Source: Thermus brockianus (GTDB taxonomy: Bacteria > Deinococcota > Deinococci > Deinococcales > Thermaceae). Taken from it: a stretch of DNA of 56,702 nt. Position numbers and translations under genes: made by a program. This document shows positions 23,793 to 47,393 of the stretch, in pieces (position 1 is the stretch's first letter; every line of letters begins with the position of its first letter). The stretch lies in assembly GCF_021462505.1 (NCBI RefSeq), contig NZ_JAKEDV010000012.1, forward strand, positions 1-56,702. The letters are read 5' to 3'. The notes beneath the pieces were generated by a model that saw only the letters and a list, made by a program, of their open reading frames with translations, was not told the origin of the DNA and searched no databases.

Positions 23793-24485
23793 CTAGCTTA
23801 CCAATTCCTCCTCCCGGTCCACGTCCACCCCCACCTCGGGGTAAGGGGTGAGGAGGGCCCTGGCCTCCACCCCCAGGATCCGGCTCGCCCTGGCCTCCAC
23901 CTCGGCCAGGGAGAGCTTCCCCAGAAGGAGCTTGAGGAGGATATCCAGGCCCACCAGCCGGGCCAGGGCCAAGGGCCTCTTGCGCAGGGCCACCACCCGT
24001 TTGGCCAGGGGCAGGGCCTGGAAGAAGAGGGCCTTGTCCAAAAGGAGGAGGTTCCCCCCGGTGAAGGTCCCCTCCTTGAGCCGGGCGTAGGTGCGCCGGG
24101 TCTTGGGAAAGCGGGCCTCCACCTTCTCCTTGGGCACGATGGGGTAGACCAAGGCCGCTTCCGGCGCCCTCTCCAAGACGAAGCGCACCGCCTCCGGGGT
24201 GAGGTGGGGAATGTCGGCGGTGGCCACCAGGACCCGGCCCTCCACATGGGCCAAGGCCGCCTCCAGGTTGGCGAGGAGACTCCCTTGGTCCGGCAGGGTG
24301 AGGCGGGGAGGGGGGGTAAGCCCAGGGTTTTCCCCCACGTAGAGGGCGGAAAGCCCCGCCTCGGCCAAGGCGGAAAGCACCCACTCCGCCAAAGGCCTTC
24401 CCCGGTAGGGCACCAAAGCCTTGCTCCGCACCCCGTATTTCCTGGCCCAAGCCTCCTCGCCGCCCCCTAGAACGATGGCCTCCAT
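23793..24485 (-). CDS. MobA-like nucleotidyltransferase of unknown substrate
   Basis: This 230-residue protein begins EAIVLGGGEEAWARKYGVRSKAL, with VPYRGRPLAEWVL after it, the NTP-binding start of the MobA/GlmU/IspD-like nucleotidyltransferase family, and has ATADIPHLT with the metal Asp. The first glycine loop (GGG) is shorter than in MobA. It may make an activated sugar or cofactor. The ATG is 6 nt after TACCAT (24497-24492), so the mRNA is probably leaderless. It is divergent from the SdpI-like gene across 24 bp. Confidence 0.72.
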   Translation of the reverse strand: MEAIVLGGGEEAWARKYGVRSKALVPYRGRPLAEWVLSALAEAGLSALYVGENPGLTPPPRLTLPDQGSLLANLEAALAHVEGRVLVATADIPHLTPEAVRFVLERAPEAALVYPIVPKEKVEARFPKTRRTYARLKEGTFTGGNLLLLDKALFFQALPLAKRVVALRKRPLALARLVGLDILLKLLLGKLSLAEVEARASRILGVEARALLTPYPEVGVDVDREEELVS

Positions 24486-24491
24486 GCCCCC

Positions 24492-24503
24492 ATGGTATAG
24501 GCT
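24492..24503. promoter_or_regulatory. Abutting divergent -10 hexamers
   Basis: TACCAT on the minus strand (24497-24492) is followed without a gap by TAGGCT on the plus strand (24498-24503). Each is exactly 6 nt from its start codon. There is no room for a -35 outside the opposite gene. Confidence 0.6.
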
Positions 24504-24509
24504 TTAGGG

Positions 24510-28637: not shown

Positions 28638-29009
28638 CTACGCCTCCTTGGGAGCCTCGAGGGCCCGGCTCTCCCCAGCCAGGCTCTGGCCGATGAAGAC
28701 CGCCCCCGCCTCCACGTCCAGGGCCTGGGCCCGCACGCTCCCCGTGAAGCGGGCCGTTTTGGAAAGGGCCACCTTCCCGGCCACGATATCGGCCTTGACC
28801 TCCCCGTGGATCTGCACCGCCTGGGCCTCTATGCGCTCCCCTTCTATGCGGCCCGTGCGCCCCACCTCCAGCTCCCCTTCCACGTAGACCGAACCCCGGA
28901 CCAGGCCGTCTATGCGCACCTGGCCCTTGGCCTTGAGGTCGCCCAGGACCTCGGTTTCCGGGGCCAGGTAGGTGAGGGGGTTCTGCCTCCTTGCGAGCAT
29001 CCGCCCCAT
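28638..29009 (-). CDS. Bactofilin
   Basis: This 123-residue protein is built of the short beta-helix repeats of bactofilins (DUF583): [21 protein letters not shown] and [18 protein letters not shown] (split across rungs), with a proline-containing tail. Bactofilins polymerise without nucleotide and position wall enzymes. The frame is open much further upstream, but that part is a shadow of the M23 gene. ATG 29009 overlaps the spacing after the M23 stop. Bactofilin-M23 neighbour pairs are common in bacteria and suggest a shared cell-shape role. Confidence 0.88.
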
Positions 29010-29010
29010 T

Positions 29011-29910
29011 TTACCGGCCCGCCCAGGCGGGGGAAAGGTAGGGCCTGGGGTCCAGGGGGACGCCGTGGCGGTAGACGCCGTAGTGCAGGTGGGGCCCCGT
29101 GGAGCGGCCCGTGGAGCCCACGTAGCCCAGAACCTGCCCCCGCTCCACCCGTTCCCCAGGCCGCACCAGGATGCGGGAGAGGTGGCCGTAAAGGGTCTGG
29201 TAGCCCTCGGCGTGGTCCAAGAGGACGGCGAGGCCATAGGGCCCCATCCAGCCCACCCGGGCCACCACCCCGCCGCCCGTGGCGTGGACCGGCGCCCCGT
29301 AGGGGGCGGAGAAATCCAGCCCATCGTGGAACTCCAGGCCGGGGCCAAAGGGGTTTTTGCGGGTACCGAAGGAGGAGGTGATGCCCCCATGGCCCCGGAG
29401 GGGAAGCCCCCGGGGGAGGCTCGCCTCCACCTCCAACGTGCGCTCCAAGGCCGGAACAAGCTCCCGCACCTGGTTTTGCAGGTCCAGCACCGTGGCCCGC
29501 ACCTCCGCCCACCCCGCCATGGCCCCCCCGCCCTGTCCCCCCTCTTGGTAGCGCACGGGCAGGGCGTTGAGGGGGGAAAGCCCGGCGCGGCGGCGGAGCT
29601 CGTCAATGGCCTTTTTCAAGGCTTCCAGTTCCCTTTTGGTACGCTCCGCCTCCTGGGAAAGCGCCCCGTTTTTGGCCTTTTCCGCCTCGAGGGCCAGGGA
29701 AAGCCTGCGGGCCTCCTGGGCCAAGGCGCGCATTCTGGCCTCCAAATCCCGGGCCTCCTGGGCCCGGTGCCAAAAGTAAAGGTTGGCCCCGCTCCACAAG
29801 GCCAAAAGGGCCAGGAGGAGGAGGGCCGCCCACCCGGGGAGGCTTAGGGCATGGCTCCCCCCGCCGCTTCGGGCGAGAAGGAGGGTGTAGCGCACGGGCC
29901 GCCTTTTCAT
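29011..29910 (-). CDS. M23 family metallopeptidase
   Basis: This 299-residue protein has one N-terminal membrane helix, a coiled coil at about residues 50-100 (EARMRALAQEARRLSLALEA), and a C-terminal LytM domain with the zinc motif FHDGLDFS and the catalytic HLHYG. All visible catalytic residues are present, so it should cut peptidoglycan. The ATG is 8 nt after TAAACT (29924-29919). It is followed directly by bactofilin. Confidence 0.92.
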   Translation of the reverse strand: MKRRPVRYTLLLARSGGGSHALSLPGWAALLLLALLALWSGANLYFWHRAQEARDLEARMRALAQEARRLSLALEAEKAKNGALSQEAERTKRELEALKKAIDELRRRAGLSPLNALPVRYQEGGQGGGAMAGWAEVRATVLDLQNQVRELVPALERTLEVEASLPRGLPLRGHGGITSSFGTRKNPFGPGLEFHDGLDFSAPYGAPVHATGGGVVARVGWMGPYGLAVLLDHAEGYQTLYGHLSRILVRPGERVERGQVLGYVGSTGRSTGPHLHYGVYRHGVPLDPRPYLSPAWAGR

Positions 29911-34269: not shown

Positions 34270-34277
34270 AGTATACT
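34270..34277. promoter_or_regulatory. Palindromic -10 shared by two divergent leaderless genes
   Basis: AGTATACT reads as TATACT on both strands. On the plus strand it is 6 nt before the GTG at 34284, and on the minus strand 7 nt before the panC GTG. The whole gap between the two genes is 21 bp, so one melting site must serve both directions. Confidence 0.65.
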
Positions 34278-34913: not shown

Positions 34914-36011
34914 TCATTGTAGCAGGTCCTTCCCAAGCTCCACCACCACGCCCGAAAGGGGCCTATGGGGGGCGAGGAGGGGCAGGTGGAAAAGCTCGGC
35001 GTAGTAGGCCCCGGCCACGGGGTCTTGGGTGTAGACGGCGCTCCTCTCTACCCCCGCCTCCTCCAAAACGGGCCTTACCCCTTCCCTTTGCAAAAGCGCC
35101 TGCCCCCAGCGCAAAAGCGCCCCTTCTCCTCGCAACACCACCGGCACGTCCGGGGGTGCCAAAGGGGGGTTTTCGCCGAAGAAAGCGGCGAGGAAGCGGG
35201 CCCGGGCCTCCTCGTCCACGTAGAGGAAGGTGCCGGGGCCCTCCCGGGTGGGCAGGGTGGCCAGGGAAACCTTAAGCCCCTGGACGGCGGGTAGATAGCC
35301 CAGGACCTCCTCGAGGGTGAGGTCCGTGTCCAACTGGGCCCAGACCTCCCGCAGGGCCAGGGCCAAGGCGGGCCAGGTGCGGGGGTCTTGGGCTTTCCGC
35401 AAGACTTGGACCAACACCTCCTTGATGCGGTCCAGCCGGGCGTAGTCCCCCAGGGCATCGTGGCGGAAGCGCATGTACTTCACCGCCTCCTCCCCGTTTA
35501 GGTGGAGGCGGCCTGCGGGGAAGTCTATGAAGAGCCTGGCCGCCCGGTCGGTGTAGCGCATGGGCCTTTCCAGATAGACCTCCACCCCCCCCACGGCGTC
35601 CACCACCCGGGCCACGCTCTCCAGGGTGAGGATGAGGTGCCTTTCCACCACCATCCCCGTGGCCTCGGCCACCGCCCGCTTTAGAAGCTCCGCCCCACCC
35701 CGGCCGTAGGCGGCGTTCACCTTGCCCCCCACCAGGGGGCTATAGAGGTCGCGGGGGATGGCCACCCCCTTGGCCTCCTGGCCCCTTAGGCGCAGGTAAA
35801 AGATGGTGTCCGTGCGGGAACCGGGGCCGCAGGGGGTGTGGTAGCCGCAGTACTCTATGTCCCGGGCCGCCACCACCACCCCCATCTCCGGCAAGGCCCC
35901 CGCCCGCACGGGGCGCACCTCCCCCTCCTCCTTCGGACGGGGCAGGGAAAGAACGCCCCCAAGGGCGAAAAGCGCCAAGGCCAAGAGGAGGAAGGAAACC
36001 CTAGGGCGCAT
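34914..36011 (-). CDS. LytR-CpsA-Psr family cell-envelope transferase
   Basis: This 365-residue protein has an N-terminal membrane helix and an LCP domain with the signatures RTDTIFYLRL, VAIPRDLY, VNAAYGRGG, LNGEEAVKYMRFRHD and YARLDR. LCP enzymes attach wall polymers from a polyprenyl-phosphate carrier to peptidoglycan. A C-terminal region of unknown fold follows. It overlaps yqeK by 11 bp and lies between yqeK and rsfS. Confidence 0.9.
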   Translation of the reverse strand: MRPRVSFLLLALALFALGGVLSLPRPKEEGEVRPVRAGALPEMGVVVAARDIEYCGYHTPCGPGSRTDTIFYLRLRGQEAKGVAIPRDLYSPLVGGKVNAAYGRGGAELLKRAVAEATGMVVERHLILTLESVARVVDAVGGVEVYLERPMRYTDRAARLFIDFPAGRLHLNGEEAVKYMRFRHDALGDYARLDRIKEVLVQVLRKAQDPRTWPALALALREVWAQLDTDLTLEEVLGYLPAVQGLKVSLATLPTREGPGTFLYVDEEARARFLAAFFGENPPLAPPDVPVVLRGEGALLRWGQALLQREGVRPVLEEAGVERSAVYTQDPVAGAYYAELFHLPLLAPHRPLSGVVVELGKDLLQ

Positions 36012-39195: not shown

Positions 39196-39549
39196 ATGTC
39201 CCCCTTTTCCTCCCTAGACCGGGGCTTTGACCGGGTCTCCCGGATGGGGCAGGAGGAATGGGACATGGGGTTCCTCATCCGGTCCCTACGCCAACGGGAG
39301 GTGGAGATGGAGGAGGGGGAGCGCTACCCGGAGGTGCGGGAGGCGGAGGGCAAGGGGGCTTGGCTTTCTGGGTACGACGGGAGGAGGGTGGAGGTGAAGC
39401 TCTTTCTGGCCCAAGGTCCTCCTTCCCTGCGGGGCGTGGCGGTGCGGGTGCTTGGGGGTTTTTCCCAGCAACCGGCACGGGGTGGGGGAAGGGATGCGAG
39501 CTCAGCTCCGCCTGCACTTGACAAAGGTGCCAAGCTTCACTATAGTTAA
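39196..39549 (+). CDS. Doubtful hypothetical frame, possibly a gene remnant
   Basis: The frame encodes 117 residues without recognisable motifs. Codons up to about 39455 follow the genome's G/C third-position pattern (for example the RQREVEMEEGERYPEVREAE stretch). The last 30 codons do not, and they run through the tRNA promoter at 39518-39546. I see no ribosome site. It may be the decayed front of a lost gene, or chance. Confidence 0.3.
   Translation: MSPFSSLDRGFDRVSRMGQEEWDMGFLIRSLRQREVEMEEGERYPEVREAEGKGAWLSGYDGRRVEVKLFLAQGPPSLRGVAVRVLGGFSQQPARGGGRDASSAPPALDKGAKLHYS
39518..39546 (+). promoter_or_regulatory. Promoter of the initiator tRNA gene
   Basis: TTGACA (39518-39523), exactly 17 bp, then TATAGT (39541-39546). 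It is the closest match to consensus in the window. Confidence 0.9.
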
Positions 39550-39635: not shown

Positions 39636-39640
39636 AACCG

Positions 39641-39669
39641 CCCCCGGGCACAATGGGCCCGGGGGTTTT
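39641..39669 (+). terminator. Terminator of tRNA-fMet
   Basis: CCCCCGGGC and GCCCGGGGG form a perfect 9-bp stem with a 7-nt loop, followed by TTTT. Confidence 0.9.
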
Positions 39670-39673
39670 GCCT

Positions 39674-39679
39674 TACCCT
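39674..39679 (+). promoter_or_regulatory. -10 hexamer for a leaderless pterin dehydratase mRNA
   Basis: TACCCT, then TAGGGC, then ATG at 39686. The hexamer follows the tRNA terminator by 4 bp. Confidence 0.6.
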
Positions 39680-39685
39680 TAGGGC

Positions 39686-39922
39686 ATGGACTGGGAGGTG
39701 CGCCAAGACCCCGAGCGCCTCTACAAGCGCTTCCGCTTCAAGGACTTCCGGGAGGCCCTGGCCTTCGCCAACCGGGTGGGGGAACTGGCCGAGGCCCAGG
39801 GCCACCACCCCCGCCTCACCGTGGCCTGGGGCCAAGTGGAGGTGGAGTGGTGGACCCACAGCGCCGGGGGCATCACGGAGAAGGACCGGGAGATGGCCCG
39901 CCTCACGGATAGCCTCCTGTAG
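39686..39922 (+). CDS. 4a-hydroxytetrahydrobiopterin dehydratase (PCD/DCoH)
   Basis: This 78-residue protein has FKDFREALAFANRVGELAEAQGHHP and VEVEWWTHSAGGITEKD (in shorter parts AEAQGHHPRL and WTHSAGGITEKD), the PCD active-site His cluster and Thr/Ser loop. It dehydrates pterin carbinolamine. No phenylalanine hydroxylase is nearby. Shorter than typical PCDs, it begins directly at the first strand. Its TAG stop forms part of the next gene's -10. Confidence 0.88.
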   Translation: MDWEVRQDPERLYKRFRFKDFREALAFANRVGELAEAQGHHPRLTVAWGQVEVEWWTHSAGGITEKDREMARLTDSLL

Positions 39923-39925
39923 GCT
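39920..39925 (+). promoter_or_regulatory. -10 hexamer containing a stop codon
   Basis: TAGGCT includes the TAG stop of the pterin dehydratase gene and lies 6 nt before the ATG of the thioesterase at 39932. Confidence 0.55.
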
Positions 39926-39931
39926 AAGGGC

Positions 39932-40309
39932 ATGGAGGCGCGGACCCTCGAGCTCGTCTTCCCCGAGCACACCAACCCCTTGGGGGCGGCCTTTGGCGGC
40001 TTCGTCCTGGGCCTTATGGACAAGGTGGGCTCCTACGCCGCCGCCCGCTACGCCAAAAAGCCCGTGGTCACCGTGGCGGTGGGGAGCGTGGAGTTCAAGG
40101 TGCCCATCCGCACCGGGGACCTCCTGGAGGTGGTGGCCCGGGTGGTGCGGGTGGGGCGCACCTCCTTGACCGTGGAGGTGGAGGTGTACAAGGAACGCTT
40201 CGGCCACGAAAACGGCCGCACCCTCGCCACCAAGGGCACCCTCACCTACGTGGCGGTGAACGAGAAGGGGGAGCCCGTCCCCGTGGAGGCCCATGCGGGT
40301 GCTGATTGA
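39932..40309 (+). CDS. Acyl-CoA thioesterase (hotdog fold)
   Basis: This 125-residue hotdog thioesterase of the YciA/acyl-CoA hydrolase type has the HTNPLGAAFGGFVLGLMDKVG block, in which the Asp is the catalytic candidate, and VGSVEFKVPIRTGDLLEV. It hydrolyses acyl-CoA. The natural chain length is unknown. It overlaps the next gene by 17 bp. Confidence 0.88.
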   Translation: MEARTLELVFPEHTNPLGAAFGGFVLGLMDKVGSYAAARYAKKPVVTVAVGSVEFKVPIRTGDLLEVVARVVRVGRTSLTVEVEVYKERFGHENGRTLATKGTLTYVAVNEKGEPVPVEAHAGAD

Positions 40310-40598
40310 CGCCCAGTGCCCCTACTGCCGGGCCTTGGGAGAGGCCCTAAAGGCCCTGGACCTGGGGAAGGCCCTTCGGGTGGAGCCCCTACAAGGGGCC
40401 ACGGACCTGGAAAAGGAGGCCCTTCTCCGGGAGCTCCACGTCCTGGAGGGGGAAAGGGTCTACCGGGGCTATGGGGCACTCCTCCACCTGGCCCGCCGCC
40501 TCCCCCTCCTTTGGCCCCTTTTCCCCTTCCTCTACCTCCTAAGCCCTTTGGGGAAGCCCCTTTACCGCCTCCTGGCGGCGCGGAGGCCCCGTGCCTGA
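40293..40598 (+). CDS. DCC-family thiol-disulfide protein (DUF393)
   Basis: This 101-residue DUF393 protein has the N-terminal redox motif CPYC and the usual YRGYGALLHLARRLPLLWPL block, followed by a hydrophobic stretch. Its role is not known. It is translationally linked, overlapping the thioesterase by 17 bp and mutM by 8 bp. Confidence 0.8.
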   Translation: MRVLIDAQCPYCRALGEALKALDLGKALRVEPLQGATDLEKEALLRELHVLEGERVYRGYGALLHLARRLPLLWPLFPFLYLLSPLGKPLYRLLAARRPRA

Positions 40599-41385
40599 GC
40601 TGCCCGAGGTGGAAACCACGAGGCGCCGCCTCCTCCCCCTCCTAAAGGGGAAACCCCTCCTAAGGGTGCGCCACCAGGACCCCCTGCGCTACCGCCACAC
40701 GGAACGGGCGGAAGGAAAGCGCATCCTGGACATCGGGCGCCGGGGGAAGTTCCTCCTCTTCGCCCTTTCCGGGGGGCTGGAGATGGTGGTCCACCTGGGG
40801 ATGACGGGGGGCTTCCGCCTCGAGGCCACCCCCCACACCCGGGCCACCCTGGAGTTCCCCTCCTTCCCCCTCCACTTCCACGACCCCCGGCGCTTCGGCC
40901 GCATCTGGGTGGTGGAAGGGGGAAACTACCAGGAAATTCCCCTCCTAAGCCGCCTCGGCCCCGAGCCCCTTTCGGAAGATTTCCGACTGGAAGGCTTCCT
41001 CCAAGGGCTTCGCCGAAGCGCCAAGCCCCTCAAGGCCCTCCTCCTGGACCAGACCCTGGCGGCGGGGGTGGGGAACATCTACGCCGACGAGGCCCTCTTT
41101 CGGGCCCGCCTCCACCCCTTGCGCCGGGCCAAGGAACTCCGCCCCGAGGAGGGGGAAAGGCTTTTCAGGGCCCTAAAGGAGGTCCTGGCCGAGGCCCTCG
41201 CCCTTGGGGGAAGCACGCTTTCCGACCAAAGCTACCGGCAGCCCGACGGCCTCCCCGGAAGCTTCCAGGAGCGCCACGCCGTCTACGGGCGGGAAGGCCT
41301 CCCCTGCCCCGCCTGCGGCGCGCCCATCCGGCGGCAGGTGGTGGCGGGGCGGAGCGCCCACTTCTGCCCCCGGTGCCAGGGCTAG
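40591..41385 (+). CDS. mutM: Formamidopyrimidine-DNA glycosylase
   Basis: This 264-residue enzyme excises 8-oxoguanine. The mature N-terminus PELPEVET provides the catalytic Pro and Glu. GNIYADEALF is the H2TH region, and the C-terminal zinc finger has CPAC and CPRC. The start is GTG. Thermus MutM is structurally known and of similar size. The stop overlaps the convergent flavin reductase stop through CTAG. Confidence 0.95.
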   Translation: MPELPEVETTRRRLLPLLKGKPLLRVRHQDPLRYRHTERAEGKRILDIGRRGKFLLFALSGGLEMVVHLGMTGGFRLEATPHTRATLEFPSFPLHFHDPRRFGRIWVVEGGNYQEIPLLSRLGPEPLSEDFRLEGFLQGLRRSAKPLKALLLDQTLAAGVGNIYADEALFRARLHPLRRAKELRPEEGERLFRALKEVLAEALALGGSTLSDQSYRQPDGLPGSFQERHAVYGREGLPCPACGAPIRRQVVAGRSAHFCPRCQG

Positions 41386-41861
41386 CCCCCGTAGAACCAG
41401 CCCGTGTCCCACATGACGAGGGGCTTGGCCTCGTACCGCACCCCCGCCCCCACCACCTCCGCCACCACCACGCTGTGGTCCCCGCCGGGGTAGAGGTGGC
41501 GCACCTCGGCCTCGAGCCAGTAGGGGAGTTCGGTGAGGAGGGGGAGGCCCAGGGTGGGGGAAGGCGCAAAGGGGTGGCCGTTTAGGGTGTTCCCCTCCCT
41601 CTGCGTGGGCTTGAAGAAGTCCTGGGCGATGGCCTTCTGGTCGGCGGCGAGGGTCATGAGGGCGAGTTTCCCCGTGCGCTCTATGAGGGCGTGGAGGTGG
41701 CTATCCCGCTTCACCCCCAGGGCAATGAGGGGCGGGGTGAAGGAGGCTTGGGTCACCCAGTTCACCGTGCCGGCAGCGTAGTCCTCGCCGTCTTTGGCCG
41801 TGAGGATGTAAAGGCCGTAGGTGAAGCTCCTTAGGACCTTCTTCTTGGCCTCCAGGTCCAT
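41382..41861 (-). CDS. Flavin reductase-like FMN-binding protein
   Basis: This 159-residue split-barrel protein of the HpaC/styrene monooxygenase small-component type has YGLYILTAKDGEDYAAGTVNWVTQASF (in parts YGLYILTAKDG and TVNWVTQASFTPPLIAL) and the GDHSVVVAEV strand. It would supply reduced flavin to a monooxygenase or bind FMN itself. No oxygenase lies near. The ATG is 6 nt after TAGAAT (41873-41868), which includes the suhB stop. Confidence 0.87.
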   Translation of the reverse strand: MDLEAKKKVLRSFTYGLYILTAKDGEDYAAGTVNWVTQASFTPPLIALGVKRDSHLHALIERTGKLALMTLAADQKAIAQDFFKPTQREGNTLNGHPFAPSPTLGLPLLTELPYWLEAEVRHLYPGGDHSVVVAEVVGAGVRYEAKPLVMWDTGWFYGG

Positions 41862-41867
41862 GTCCCC

Positions 41868-41873
41868 ATTCTA
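41868..41873 (-). promoter_or_regulatory. -10 hexamer containing the suhB stop codon
   Basis: TAGAAT on the minus strand begins with the TAG stop of suhB (41873-41871) and is followed by GGGGAC and ATG at 41861. Confidence 0.6.
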
Positions 41874-42656
41874 GTCTTCCCGGAGGGTCCGGAGCAAAGC
41901 CTCGTGGATGCGGCCGTTGGTGGCCACGATGTAGCGGTGGCCCAGGCGGTAGGGCCTCCCCTCCAGGTCCGTGACCTTCCCCCCCGCCTCCTCCACCAAA
42001 AGCCACCCCGCCGCCACGTCCCAGGGGTTGAGCTTCACTTCCCAGAAGCCCTCGAGGCGGCCCGCCGCCACGTAGGCCAGGTCCAAGGCGGCCGCCCCCG
42101 GCCGCCGCACGAGAAGCCCCCGCCTCAGGGCCCGGGCGAAGTAGGTGAGGTTCTCCGGGTCCTGGGCCACGTCGTAGGGGAAGCCCGTGGCGAGGAGGCT
42201 TCCCAGCAACTCCGCCCGCTCCGTGACCCGGATGGGCCGCCCGTCCAGGTACGCCCCCCCGCCCCTCAGGGCGTAGAAGACCTCCCCCCGGGCGGTGTCC
42301 ATCACCACCCCCGCCTGGACCACCCCCTCCACCTCCAGGGCCAGGGAAACCCCGTAGAAGGGGAAGCCGTGGGCGTAGTTCACCGTGCCGTCCAAGGGGT
42401 CCACGATGAAGCGGAGGGCCTTTCCCCCCTCGCTTCCCCCCTCCTCCCCCAAGAACCCCGCCTCGGGGAAGCGGGCGAGGAGGAGTTCCCGGATGGCCGC
42501 CTCCGCCTCCCGGTCCGCCTGGGTCACCAGGTCCGTGGGGCCCGACTTGGTCCCCTGGGTGAAGCCCTTGGCCAGGTAGTAGGCGTGGATGCCCCGGGCG
42601 AGGTCCGCCGCCTCCAGCATGGCCATGAGATGGGGAAAGAAGGGATGACCCTTCAC
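41871..42656 (-). CDS. suhB: Inositol monophosphatase family protein
   Basis: This 261-residue metal-dependent sugar phosphatase has GEEGG for metal binding, DPLDGTVNYAHGFPF and the C-terminal PWDVAAGWLLVEEAGG. It is typical of inositol-1-phosphatase/SuhB, though fructose bisphosphate or NADP can be substrates in this family. The GTG at 42656 overlaps trpF (GTGA). An internal start at MAMLEAADLA, 10 codons later, is also possible. Confidence 0.9.
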   Translation of the reverse strand: MKGHPFFPHLMAMLEAADLARGIHAYYLAKGFTQGTKSGPTDLVTQADREAEAAIRELLLARFPEAGFLGEEGGSEGGKALRFIVDPLDGTVNYAHGFPFYGVSLALEVEGVVQAGVVMDTARGEVFYALRGGGAYLDGRPIRVTERAELLGSLLATGFPYDVAQDPENLTYFARALRRGLLVRRPGAAALDLAYVAAGRLEGFWEVKLNPWDVAAGWLLVEEAGGKVTDLEGRPYRLGHRYIVATNGRIHEALLRTLRED

Positions 42657-43271: not shown

Positions 43272-46200
43272 CTAGCCGCACTTGGAGTAGCCGCAGGCCT
43301 GGCACTTGTAGCAGGCCTCTTCCCGCACCAACGCCTTCTCCCCGCACACCGGGCAGGTCAAAGCCCCAGGGAGGGCGAGGCCTCCCCCGGAAAGCGGCAG
43401 GGGGGCTTCCGCCTCCTCGGGGGGAAGGCCCCGTTTGAAGGCCTGGGGAATGGTCTCCAGGGCCACGGCGATGAGGTCCGCCTTGCTGGACACGAGCCTC
43501 CCCTGGTAGCTCCCGTAAAGCCCCCCGTTGATGCCCCTAAGGGTCCGGATGATGGCCTCGGGGGGCACCCCGTACTGGAGGGCGATGGACACCACCCGGC
43601 CCAGGGCTTCGCTATCGGCGTTGGCCTCGTCCCCCGCCTTCCCCGAGGTGAGGATGACCTCAATGGGCCTATCCCCGAGGAGGTTCACCGTGACGAGGAA
43701 GCTCCGCTTGGCCCCCTCGGGGGTAAGGAGCTTCACCATGTCCGTAAAGCCCATGAGGCGCCCCGGGCGCTCGTAGACGGGACCTTCTGGCCTCTCCTCC
43801 CGCTTTGGCGCGCTTGCTGGGGCCGCCTGGGGCTCCCCTTCGGGCGCCTTTTTCTCCTTGCCCTTCTCTTCTTTCTTCACCGTGAGCACCTGGAACTCCC
43901 GGGAGCCATCCCGGTAGACGGTAATCCCCTTGCACCCCGTGCGGTAGGCCTCGGCGTAGGCCGCCTCCACGTCCGCCACCGTGGCCTCATGGGGCAGGTT
44001 GATGGTGTTGTGGGAGAGGACGCCGTTCACCACATAGCGGTGGACCTCCTCCACCTCTATGTCGTACATTTCCACCTCGCCCACATCCTCCACCTCCACC
44101 ACCCTAAAGGCCAACACCTCCGTGGGCCAACCCAGACGGTCCGCGGTGCAGTTGTAAACGTGGGAAACCCCCCTGCTCCGCACCGACCTTAGGTTTGTGT
44201 ACCCAGGATGGTGCACCCCCACGCGGGTGGCCTCCACAACCTCCTCCGGAACGAACACCCTGTACTGCCTGTCCACCCGGGGAATGCGTTTATGGACCTC
44301 AATAGGCTCCACCAGTTCCTGCAGGGGACCCGAAACGACCACCGAATGGACGAAGTATGTCTCCTTAGGTGCTTCTACTTTCTTGCGCCCCTGGTACACC
44401 TGGGGCAACCCGAAGCTCCGGGCCACCTCCGCAGCCTCGTAAGCAAGCCGGGCACTCTTGCCCTCGTAGACCACGAGGCCCAAGTCCGGACGAGCATAGC
44501 CATCCAAGGTCAGCCCCTTAAGGAAAGCGAGCTTCTCCTCGGCGTTTCCCTGAAGGATCTGGCGCGGCACCCGCTTTTCAGCGGCCCCCTTGCCGATTAA
44601 AGCCTCCACGTAACGGACCAGGCGCCTGGAGGTAAGGTACAGGTTGCGCACCCCCGTGCGTTTGTCCACCGTTACCTTGGGTTCCGTGCCGAAGAGCCGT
44701 TGGACCACCTCTCGGAAGGTCGCTTCCACCTCCGGGCTCTTGGTGGCTATGCCCACAAAACCGGTGCTCTCCACCGTGGAACCGTCCGCGGCCAACATGC
44801 CCAGAAAGAGGGCCAGTTCGGGGCTCATCCTTTCGGGCAGAGGAAGGGCCTTGGCGTTGGTGCGCAGGGGAAACTCTAGCGAAATAGGGGCTCCCCCAGG
44901 ACCATGGGCGGGAACCAGCTTGCCCAAAACGAGGTCTCCGGGCTTAAGCTCCCGCATCAGGCGCCAACCCTGGGGAGTGAGGACGCGGTGGCTCTCCCAC
45001 GCACCCACCAACTCCGCCCCATTGTCTAGGCGCACCCGAACCCCCCTCTTCTTGCCAGCGAAGTAGTGGGCGGTGATGCGGTATCCCTCCGCCGTGTACA
45101 AGCCGTCCACCGGGGCAAAGGTGTCCTCGGGATGGGGTGGGGCGATCTCCTCAACGGGGATGAGCCCTTTGGAGGTAGGAATCAGGGTGCCCTTGGCGAT
45201 GCACTTAGATAGGGAGTTGGCGGCGTACCCCTCGGCGTCAAAGGCCCGTTGCACCACTCCCTGCATGCGCACGTGGTCCAAGGGGTGGATGTCGTGGGCG
45301 CACCGGAAGACCCTGCGGATGGGCTCGGGCACGAAGGAGAGGTTCTGCACGGAGCCGTGGCCGTCCCGTTGGATCTCCTCAACGATCTTGTCCCAGTCCC
45401 ACTTCCCGTCCTTCTCGTAGCCGGGGGCGGGCGGGTAGGCCTCCATGAGCTCCACGAAGAGGGGGTGGAGGAGGGGCTTGTACTCCCCGCCGATCCTCCG
45501 CCAGACGAAGGGACTAAAGACGGGCTCAATCCCGCTGCTAACCCCCATGAGCATGCTGGTGGTGCCCGTGGGGGCCACGGTGAGGACGGCCACGTTGCGC
45601 CGGGGGCGGATGCCGAGCTCCTGGAAGTACTCCCGGTGCGCCTCGTAGAGGGGGAAGGGGCCCCTTTCCTCGGCGAGGGCCTCCGAGGCCTTGATGGCCT
45701 CCTCCCGCATGGCGGAGATGATCTCGTAGACCTTCTCCCGGGCCGCCTCGGAGTCGTAGGGGAGGCCCATCTTGATGAGGGCGTCCGCCAGGCCCATGAC
45801 CCCAAGACCCAGGCGCCTCAGGCTTTTCGCCGCCTCCTCGTTGTCCTTGAGGGCGAAGCGGTTCACGTCCAGGACGTTGTCCAGGAAGCGGATGGCGGTA
45901 TGCACGTCCCGGCGGAAGGTTTCCATCTGGAACTCCCCGTCCTTCACGTAGGCGGCGAGGTTCAAAGCCCCGAGGTCGCAGGGCTCGCCCACGGTGAGTG
46001 GGATTTCACCGCACGGGTTAGTGGAACGAATCCAAAAACGCTCCCCCAACCCCTTCAGCGCCGAAAGGGCGTTGATGCGGTCCACGAAGATGAGCCCCGG
46101 CTCCCCCGTGGCCCAGGCGTGCCAGGCGATCTCGTGCCAAAGCCAACGGGCAGGGACCTTGCCCCCAAAGAGCGGGATGGGCTTGGCCCCGTCCTCCCGC

Positions 46201-47351
46201 TCGGGAAGCTCGGGGAGCTTCCCGGTGTAGGGGCCTTCCAGGGGGTATGGGTAGTACTTGCCGGGAACCTCAATGGGGGTCACGGGCCAAAGGGCATCCT
46301 CCTCCAGGGCCCGCATGAAGGCGTCGCTCACCAGGACGGAGATGTTGAAGGTGGAGATGTCCCCTTCCGCCTTCTCCCGGTCCAGGTCCTTGGCGGTGAG
46401 GAAGTCCAAGAGGTCCGGGTGCTCAATGGAGAGGGTGGCCATCCCCGCTCCACGGCGGGTACCTCCCTGCCGCACCACCCGGAGCACAGGGGCATAGACG
46501 TAGCGCAAGGTGGCCACGGGACCCGCCTCTTCCGCCCCCAAGGCCGCCCACTCCAAGAAGTTGTCAAAGATCTCAAAGAGGAAGCTCACCGGGCCCGAGC
46601 TCGTCCCCCCGCTACCCCGGATGGGGGCCCCTTCGGGCCGAAGGAGGGAGAAGTCCACGTGGGCGACAAGCCCCCGCCTCGCCCGGTCCGCCGCCTCCTT
46701 GGCGGCGTCCACGATGCCCCCCATGTCATCGGGAACCCGGATAACGTCCTCCGGGGGTTCCTGGGCCAGGGCCACCCCGTAGCGCTCCGCCAAGGCCTTT
46801 AGCTCGGGAGAAACCTCCCCGTAGACTACCCGGGCAAAGTTCTTCAGGGCGATTTCCTCTTTCGGTCCATCGGGGTTGATGGGGGGACGCATGAGGCCGC
46901 GGATGAAGTCCTCCACATCGGGGTGGCTTGCGGCCAGGTAAGCCACCCCCTGCACGGGCCGCCGCTTCCTCCCGCCCTTGGAGCGGTAGGGGTCCAGGTT
47001 CACCCCGTTCCCCCCGCCCACCTTGGTGACCAGGGCGAGCTTTCTGGCCACCTCCATGATGCCGGCAAAGCTTTCCGGAGGGTTTTCCGTGGCCCCTTGG
47101 ACGAAGCAGTTGAGGAGGTTGCCGTGGGCGGTACCGGCCCCCGCCAGGATGCGCCCGCCCGGGGAGAAGCGCTTGGTGGCCATGAGCTCGTAGAACTTCT
47201 CCTCCCAGTAGGCCCGCGCCTCCGGGCGCTCCACCTTGGCCATTTCCCGGGCCACCCGGCGGAACATGCCCAGGATGTCCCCGTCTTCGGGCTGGAGATA
47301 CTGCCGCTTGGCAATGGCTTGGGCGTGCTCGTCAAAGAAATAGGGCTCCAT
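43272..47351 (-). CDS. nrdJ: Adenosylcobalamin-dependent (class II) ribonucleotide reductase with intein
   Basis: The 1359-residue precursor makes deoxynucleotides. The extein shows NPCGE (Cys447, thiyl radical site), NLLNC near the N-terminus, APTGTTS for phosphate, and a C-terminal cysteine-rich tail (CPVC, CYKCQACGYSKC). Residues 717-1115 are an intein, so the mature enzyme is about 960 residues. No NrdB-type subunit is nearby, which fits the B12-dependent class. ATG 47351 is preferred over 47372 because GGGAGG lies 4 nt before it. TTGCCG-18-TAGTAT is the likely promoter. trpF and suhB follow. Confidence 0.94.
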   Translation of the reverse strand: MEPYFFDEHAQAIAKRQYLQPEDGDILGMFRRVAREMAKVERPEARAYWEEKFYELMATKRFSPGGRILAGAGTAHGNLLNCFVQGATENPPESFAGIMEVARKLALVTKVGGGNGVNLDPYRSKGGRKRRPVQGVAYLAASHPDVEDFIRGLMRPPINPDGPKEEIALKNFARVVYGEVSPELKALAERYGVALAQEPPEDVIRVPDDMGGIVDAAKEAADRARRGLVAHVDFSLLRPEGAPIRGSGGTSSGPVSFLFEIFDNFLEWAALGAEEAGPVATLRYVYAPVLRVVRQGGTRRGAGMATLSIEHPDLLDFLTAKDLDREKAEGDISTFNISVLVSDAFMRALEEDALWPVTPIEVPGKYYPYPLEGPYTGKLPELPEREDGAKPIPLFGGKVPARWLWHEIAWHAWATGEPGLIFVDRINALSALKGLGERFWIRSTNPCGEIPLTVGEPCDLGALNLAAYVKDGEFQMETFRRDVHTAIRFLDNVLDVNRFALKDNEEAAKSLRRLGLGVMGLADALIKMGLPYDSEAAREKVYEIISAMREEAIKASEALAEERGPFPLYEAHREYFQELGIRPRRNVAVLTVAPTGTTSMLMGVSSGIEPVFSPFVWRRIGGEYKPLLHPLFVELMEAYPPAPGYEKDGKWDWDKIVEEIQRDGHGSVQNLSFVPEPIRRVFRCAHDIHPLDHVRMQGVVQRAFDAEGYAANSLSKCIAKGTLIPTSKGLIPVEEIAPPHPEDTFAPVDGLYTAEGYRITAHYFAGKKRGVRVRLDNGAELVGAWESHRVLTPQGWRLMRELKPGDLVLGKLVPAHGPGGAPISLEFPLRTNAKALPLPERMSPELALFLGMLAADGSTVESTGFVGIATKSPEVEATFREVVQRLFGTEPKVTVDKRTGVRNLYLTSRRLVRYVEALIGKGAAEKRVPRQILQGNAEEKLAFLKGLTLDGYARPDLGLVVYEGKSARLAYEAAEVARSFGLPQVYQGRKKVEAPKETYFVHSVVVSGPLQELVEPIEVHKRIPRVDRQYRVFVPEEVVEATRVGVHHPGYTNLRSVRSRGVSHVYNCTADRLGWPTEVLAFRVVEVEDVGEVEMYDIEVEEVHRYVVNGVLSHNTINLPHEATVADVEAAYAEAYRTGCKGITVYRDGSREFQVLTVKKEEKGKEKKAPEGEPQAAPASAPKREERPEGPVYERPGRLMGFTDMVKLLTPEGAKRSFLVTVNLLGDRPIEVILTSGKAGDEANADSEALGRVVSIALQYGVPPEAIIRTLRGINGGLYGSYQGRLVSSKADLIAVALETIPQAFKRGLPPEEAEAPLPLSGGGLALPGALTCPVCGEKALVREEACYKCQACGYSKCG
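44007..45203 (-). other. Intein with LAGLIDADG homing endonuclease inside nrdJ
   Basis: The 399-residue intein begins at Cys (codon 45203-45201) with CIAKGTLIPTSKGL (block A) and ends VLSHN before Thr (block G plus +1 residue). Block B is AWESHRVL with the conserved His, block F is MYDIEVEEVHRY, and two LAGLIDADG helices (LALFLGMLAADGS and LAFLKGLTLDGYA) keep their acidic residues. Splicing and endonuclease functions both look intact. The flanks join as NSLSK/TINLP. T. thermophilus is known for several inteins in this gene. By eye the intein DNA is less GC-rich than the extein. Confidence 0.95.
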
Positions 47352-47393
47352 AATGCCTCCCACATCCCCCATATCTTGGGGCCTACGGCGGGA

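Follow-up and report, generated by a model that had tools for sequence, protein, structure and literature searches.

Two gene junctions in a 56,702-nt stretch of the Thermus brockianus genome (contig NZ_JAKEDV010000012.1, positions 1 to 56,702; hereafter the window) each carry a hexamer, TAGGCT or TAGAAT, that begins with the stop codon of one gene and lies six nucleotides before the ATG of the next. Both hexamers can be regarded with good confidence as the TANNNT −10 element of a leaderless housekeeping-sigma promoter of the Deinococcus-Thermus type. Judging from the sequence, the two downstream genes, encoding a thioesterase and a flavin reductase, very probably each have a leaderless promoter of their own. 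The coincidence of stop codon and −10 element itself looks opportunistic.

On the forward strand, the pterin-4a-carbinolamine dehydratase gene pcd (39686–39922; Pfam PF01329, Pterin_4a, E 8.8e-28) ends in a TAG (39920–39922) that forms the first half of TAGGCT (39920–39925), followed by the spacer AAGGGC and the ATG at 39932 of a 4HBT-family thioesterase gene (39932–40309; PF03061, 4HBT, E 2.5e-19). On the reverse strand, a suhB-like inositol monophosphatase family gene (41871–42656; PF00459, Inositol_P, E 8e-64), whose start is uncertain (GTG 42656 or ATG 42626, depending on gene calling), ends in a TAG (41873–41871) that forms the first half of TAGAAT (41873–41868). The spacer GGGGAC and the ATG at 41861 of a flavin reductase-like gene (41382–41861; PF01613, Flavin_Reduct, E 2.5e-35) follow. 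Both arrangements had been pointed out in a preliminary description of this DNA and were confirmed. The spacer of 6 nt in both junctions (loci L071 and L101) falls within the TANNNT range of approximately 6–8 nt before the start codon. The predicted transcription start of the thioesterase gene would lie at or adjoining the A of ATG 39932, and that of the flavin reductase gene at 41861. No Shine-Dalgarno-like 4-mer was found at −18 to −5 of either junction or overlapping either stop codon, and a terminator scan returned no terminator-like site in either. At its other end, the flavin reductase gene converges with fpg, and both TAG stop codons lie within one CTAG (41382–41385), so that there is no space between the two genes for a terminator.

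The TANNNT motif is reported to act as a −10 region in D. radiodurans, where bases 1, 2, and 6 are irreplaceable, to be present on about 30% of the open reading frames of the phylum, and to be followed by a rise in transcription in T. thermophilus (PMC12340547, 2025). Around 40% leaderless genes were inferred in five genomes of the phylum (PMC3160421, 2011). The junctions described here resemble these leaderless genes in the motif, in the distance of approximately 12 bp from its first T to the start codon, in the scarcity of Shine-Dalgarno sequences, in the phylum, and in the share of genes concerned. They differ from them in that the motif here stands in operon-like junctions and includes the stop codon of the preceding gene; neither paper uses the term 'stop codon' in its accessible main text.

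For counts beyond the window, gene calling relied on a script that takes no account of upstream signals, so that all starts are computational. The sample from the same genome (G000) comprised 857 kb, with 816 genes used for gap and offset counts and 810 in some other counts (e.g., those of spacers and of gaps of 0–2 nt), and pooled Thermus samples consisted of G000, G009, and G002. The features of the box are more in line with a −10 element than with a translation signal: the box is rare together with a Shine-Dalgarno sequence, has a fixed position 6–7 nt before the start, and is often followed by C at −1. Among 113 starts at gaps of 4–20 nt, TANNNT occurred 0, 0, 1, 0, 0, 0, 31, 22, 7, 4, and 1 times at spacers of 0 to 10 nt, respectively, a concentration at 6–7 nt. 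Shine-Dalgarno-like 4-mers accompanied 10 of 78 boxed starts at gaps of 4–20 nt vs. 56 of 81 unboxed ones (p = 2e-13). C at −1 was found in 115 of 154 boxed starts with a spacer of 6 nt, compared to 352 of 845 unboxed starts; this resembles a pyrimidine-purine transcription initiator and may be taken as indirect support. The spacers are also G-rich, in keeping with the GGGA discriminator element known for Thermus RNA polymerase; as this may simply reflect general G richness, no weight is placed on it.

Conservation within Thermus points in the same direction. The box upstream of the thioesterase gene, in the form TA[GA]NNT, was present in all 26 readable genomes at spacers of 6–9 nt and in 15 distinct 18-mers. 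These were 26 of 27 genomes searched, G010 being left out for having a 45% identical paralog only; in G042 (L096), a one-base shift near the start makes the spacer uncertain by one nucleotide. The pcd stop codon formed the first half of the box in 24 of the 26 and began at its last T in the other 2. For the flavin reductase gene, 23 of the 27 genomes were readable (G006, G015, and G020 had paralogs only, and the G042 copy, L124, had no N-terminus), and 20 of these carried the box at spacers of 6–10 nt, in 19 distinct 18-mers. Orthologs of this gene were 86–94% identical in 10 Thermus records, the next best among the 80 loci kept being 61% identical. A Shine-Dalgarno-like 4-mer stood before each of the three orthologs lacking the box (L115, L119, and L120) and before none of the 20 that carry it. 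In T. parvatiensis (L157), the flavin reductase gene starts with GTG, and the place of the box is taken by a Shine-Dalgarno-like sequence. The flavin reductase box was kept where the suhB stop codon lies 118 nt away (L106) or 24 nt away (L107), where that stop codon begins at the last T of the box (L114 and L121), and where no suhB was found in the locus (L122). Since a displaced stop codon, a wider gap, or a missing suhB leaves the box in place, the conserved unit looks like the box rather than the stop codon. In a comparison with the samples of two other species (G009 and G002), requiring spacers of 6–8 nt in the first genome and of 6–10 nt in the ortholog and including 24 ortholog pairs with differing called starts, tight boxed starts were boxed again in 7 of 9 cases and tight unboxed starts in 0 of 37; the far and mid classes of the same comparison gave 14/14 and 3/32.

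The genome-wide excess of this arrangement, for which the preliminary description had proposed a test, exists in raw pattern counts, in called gaps, and in the T at box position 6. Across the whole genome of 2,347,485 bases, TAGNNTN6ATG occurred 123 times (61 + 62 on the two strands) vs. 28 times (12 + 16) for the backward pattern. These counts involve no gene calls and are independent of whether a stop codon is present. When TAG was replaced by TGA in the pattern, no excess remained in this genome (19 vs. 16 backward), and 25 Thermus genomes together gave a slight one (502 vs. 440), to which G012, a genome with a repeated element, contributes 25; the sequence TGATTTCGCCACATG, which occurs many times in G012, is probably a repeated element. 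The TAG pattern exceeded its backward control in all 24 other Thermus genomes compared. In other genera of the same family, the excess was mostly smaller than in Thermus (e.g., G053, 153 vs. 117), and several genomes from other families of the order showed no clear excess over the backward control (e.g., G028, 435 vs. 482; G029, 113 vs. 97; G033, 203 vs. 207; G036, 180 vs. 227; G040, 228 vs. 240). In G027, a 400-kb sample from another family of the order, 14 junctions had gaps of 9–10 nt; TGA was used at one of them, 6 were boxed, and stop codons at offsets 0 and 5 from the first base of the box numbered six each. As the raw pattern is without excess in several other families, the claim is limited to Thermus, with weaker support in G027.

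The called gaps between same-strand genes in the 857-kb sample peaked at 9 nt (n = 24) and 10 nt (n = 18), with 2–9 cases at each of the gaps of 5–8 and 11–14 nt; the other peak was the ATGA overlap at −4 (n = 101). At the 42 junctions with gaps of 9–10 nt, the upstream stop codon was TAG in 24, TAA in 17, and TGA in 1. In the pooled samples, the ratio of TAG/TAA to TGA was 54:2 at these gaps vs. 435:339 at all other gaps (p = 5e-11) and vs. 170:55 at other gaps of 4–60 nt (p = 2e-4). A T at box position 6 after TAG or TAA was found in 36 of 54 cases at gaps of 9–10 nt, compared to 21 of 120 at other gaps of 4–40 nt (Fisher's exact test, p = 5e-10). The box rate in the pooled samples was 37/56 at gaps of 9–10 nt, 78/159 at 4–20 nt, 32/122 at 21–60 nt, and 14/372 at −40 to 3 nt, and in the 4-nt ATGA overlap typical of operon interiors it was 6/140. 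As a practical rule, a same-strand gap of 9–10 nt in Thermus thus signals a leaderless −10 box in about two of three cases, and because the box is so frequent there, distance-based operon prediction would merge many genes that may own promoters. At gaps of 0–2 nt in the 857-kb sample, the upstream stop codons were mostly TAG (31 of 44; TAA 7, TGA 6).

From the position of the box, the statistics, the rarity of Shine-Dalgarno sequences before boxed starts, and the conservation, we infer the following course of events. RNA polymerase with the housekeeping sigma factor would start at or within a few nucleotides of the downstream start codon, and the leaderless mRNA would be translated by ribosomes in the absence of a Shine-Dalgarno sequence. 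Since the genome is tightly packed and G+C-rich, the upstream gene would find its nearest stop codons in the box with its invariant T, A, and T, whose TA(G/A) would be the stop codon in one frame and whose last T would begin one in another. Stop codons supplied in this way would lead to the gap peak at 9–10 nt and to the near absence of TGA there, for both of which a promoter-based explanation is hereby offered. As 9 nt cannot hold a terminator and no terminator-like site was found, upstream transcripts probably run on into the next gene. The downstream gene would then be present on a polycistronic and on a leaderless mRNA, in two overlapping units. The preliminary description had identified the hexamers as −10 boxes and had proposed that genes resembling tight operon neighbors may be separate transcription units. 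The sequence evidence supports the identity of the boxes and an own start for each downstream gene; given the probable readthrough, the proposed separation is supported only in part.

Why the stop codon falls within the box was addressed by comparison with 145 boxed starts lacking a close same-strand upstream gene, in which all three frames (435 in total) were read. The first stop codon was at offset 0, 2, or 5 in 63, 15, and 35 frames, respectively, beyond offset 5 in 72, and not within reach in 250. At the 92 tight boxed junctions, it was at offset 0, 2, or 5 in 36, 6, and 21 cases; of the remaining upstream genes, 15 ended ahead of the box and 14 past offset 5. The distribution 36:6:21 did not differ from that of random frames (63:15:35; p = 0.76), indicating no preference of phase. 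Stop codons beyond the box were rarer than in the null frames (in-box to beyond, 63:14 vs. 113:72; p = 0.001), as is expected if long overlaps are avoided. The box thus seems to serve as a source of stop codons where two genes are closely packed; exact fusion showed no sign of being favored. As the phase of stop codons within the box is as in random frames and the box is kept with the stop codon elsewhere, the coincidence probably results from packing rather than being a device.

These results bear on two readings in which the overlap is itself functional. One is a selected dual-mode boundary in the Thermales, in which the hexamer would end the translation of the first gene and start the transcription of the second, translation of the upstream gene would tune the leaderless promoter, and the second gene would be expressed either through reinitiation on the long transcript or from a leaderless mRNA of its own; this we consider very unlikely. 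A related reading, a selected coupling in which a stop codon inside the −10 box is useful by itself, for instance because a ribosome that terminates there would time or clear polymerase initiation, or because the gene pair would switch between reinitiation and leaderless expression, appears slightly less probable still. It draws on the 26 junctions in the 857-kb sample whose stop codon is the first half of the box and on the recurrence of this phase in nearly all genomes at the pcd/thioesterase junction. The phase, however, is that of random frames, and some relatives keep the box with the stop codon elsewhere. Furthermore, the ribosome acts on mRNA and the polymerase on promoter DNA, which are different molecules except during upstream transcription. 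A ribosome terminating exactly where polymerase initiates, as the preliminary description had put it, was for these reasons of phase and displaced stop codons not borne out as a designed coupling.

Very unlikely, too, is that these are ordinary operon junctions whose gap and stop codon serve Shine-Dalgarno coupling or reinitiation, the TANNNT being incidental. Across prokaryotes, Shine-Dalgarno presence is highest at gaps of 9–15 bp and stop codon choice is adapted at 5–8 bp, according to a comparative study (PMC2784483), and 22 of the 56 pooled junctions with gaps of 9–10 nt had a Shine-Dalgarno-like 4-mer. Yet boxed junctions seldom have one, the two junctions of the window have none, the position of the box is fixed relative to the start, and the box is present where suhB is distant or was not found (L106, L107, and L122). 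Chance or an artefact of start calling, suggested by the home-made gene finder with its unverified starts and by a 9–10 nt peak that is distinct in G000 but not so in the smaller samples G009 and G002, was already disfavored and is extremely improbable, since the gene finder is blind to upstream signals, the excess appears in raw counts free of gene calls in this and 24 other genomes of the genus, with next to none for TGA in this genome, and the box at gaps of 9–10 nt recurs in G009 (5 of 7), G002 (6 of 7), and, more weakly, G027 (6 of 14).

Several observations weigh against the leaderless promoter reading itself. A consensus scan found no sigma-70-type promoter and no TTGACA-like −35 box 16–18 nt upstream at either junction. 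Two of the nine tight boxed starts had an unboxed ortholog. In many relatives, the spacer was 9–10 nt instead of 6 nt (thioesterase, 16 of 26; flavin reductase, 9 of 23), which would give a leader of approximately 2–4 nt, and 10 of the 26 thioesterase orthologs had a Shine-Dalgarno-like 4-mer besides the box. In 8 of the 23 flavin reductase orthologs (L105, L106, L108, L109, L110, L112, L113, and L117), an in-frame ATG 12 nt upstream of the aligned start overlaps the box (TAGAATG or TAAAATG), so that two starts are possible and the true start is uncertain in these eight. Finally, gaps of 9–10 nt formed no distinct peak in G009 and G002 (200 kb and 7 cases each).

A −35 element as a general feature of boxed starts was considered and rejected as weak: of 269 boxed starts, 19 carried TTG 16–19 nt upstream of the box and 5 carried it at a control distance (p = 0.006). 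A TTG 18 nt upstream of the box after suhB is common to the nearest relatives (L102–L104 and L123); the other rows do not have it at that distance.

Promoters inside operons, where a downstream gene has its own start in addition to being cotranscribed, are known, and recA-recX is said to be an example. The junctions described here would share the own start and the cotranscription; the predicted differences are the lack of a 5′ untranslated region and the fusion of the box to the stop codon. Another parallel is the overlap of stop codon and Shine-Dalgarno sequence (PMC2784483, 2009), where the junction is similarly short and a signal for expression of the next gene shapes stop codon choice and spacing. 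That signal is translational and acts on a single mRNA; the one considered here would be a promoter element of the DNA. That Shine-Dalgarno-centered study also lists gaps of 6–8 bp as under-used in Deinococcus-Thermus (PMC2784483), of which the −10 box is possibly another cause. The leaderless −10 mechanism is thus already known in the phylum, while the packing of stop codon and −10 box and the gap rule were not described in the titles and beginnings of abstracts found by our literature searches, most subscription papers being beyond reach.

Elsewhere in the window, a third stop codon within a box was overlooked in the preliminary description: TAAAAT (29008–29013, reverse strand), 7 nt before ATG 29000, has as its first half the TAA (29013–29011) of a gene called at 29011–29910. 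The rate of 26 cases in 857 kb corresponds to 1.7 per window, compared to the three found (two TAG and one TAA), so that the window is typical rather than special. In two phase-shifted cases on the reverse strand, the last T of the box begins the stop codon: TAAGCT (23800–23795) with TAG 23795–23793 before ATG 23788 (feature 23793–23800), and TACAAT (34921–34916) with TGA 34916–34914 before ATG 34907 (feature 34914–34921). Boxes are also present between divergent called genes. In the 24-nt gap at 24486–24509, TACCAT (−) and TAGGCT (+) each lie 6 nt before an ATG. In a 21-nt gap between GTG 34262 (−) and GTG 34284 (+), the palindromic AGTATACT (34270–34277) provides one TATACT box per gene and is, from its sequence, possibly a shared bidirectional leaderless promoter.

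The pcd gene itself has a putative −10 box, TACCCT (39674–39679, forward strand), 6 nt before ATG 39686, and a terminator-like hairpin (39640–39666, forward strand) follows the tRNA-Met gene just before this box. Just upstream of tRNA-Met, a near-perfect sigma-70 promoter (TTGACA-17-TATAGT, 11/12; 39518–39546) contrasts with the −35-less leaderless promoters predicted nearby. A very long open reading frame at 43272–47372 looks, from its sequence motifs, like a ribonucleotide reductase interrupted by an intein-like insertion. The G+C content of the window was 66–70% in 4-kb steps.

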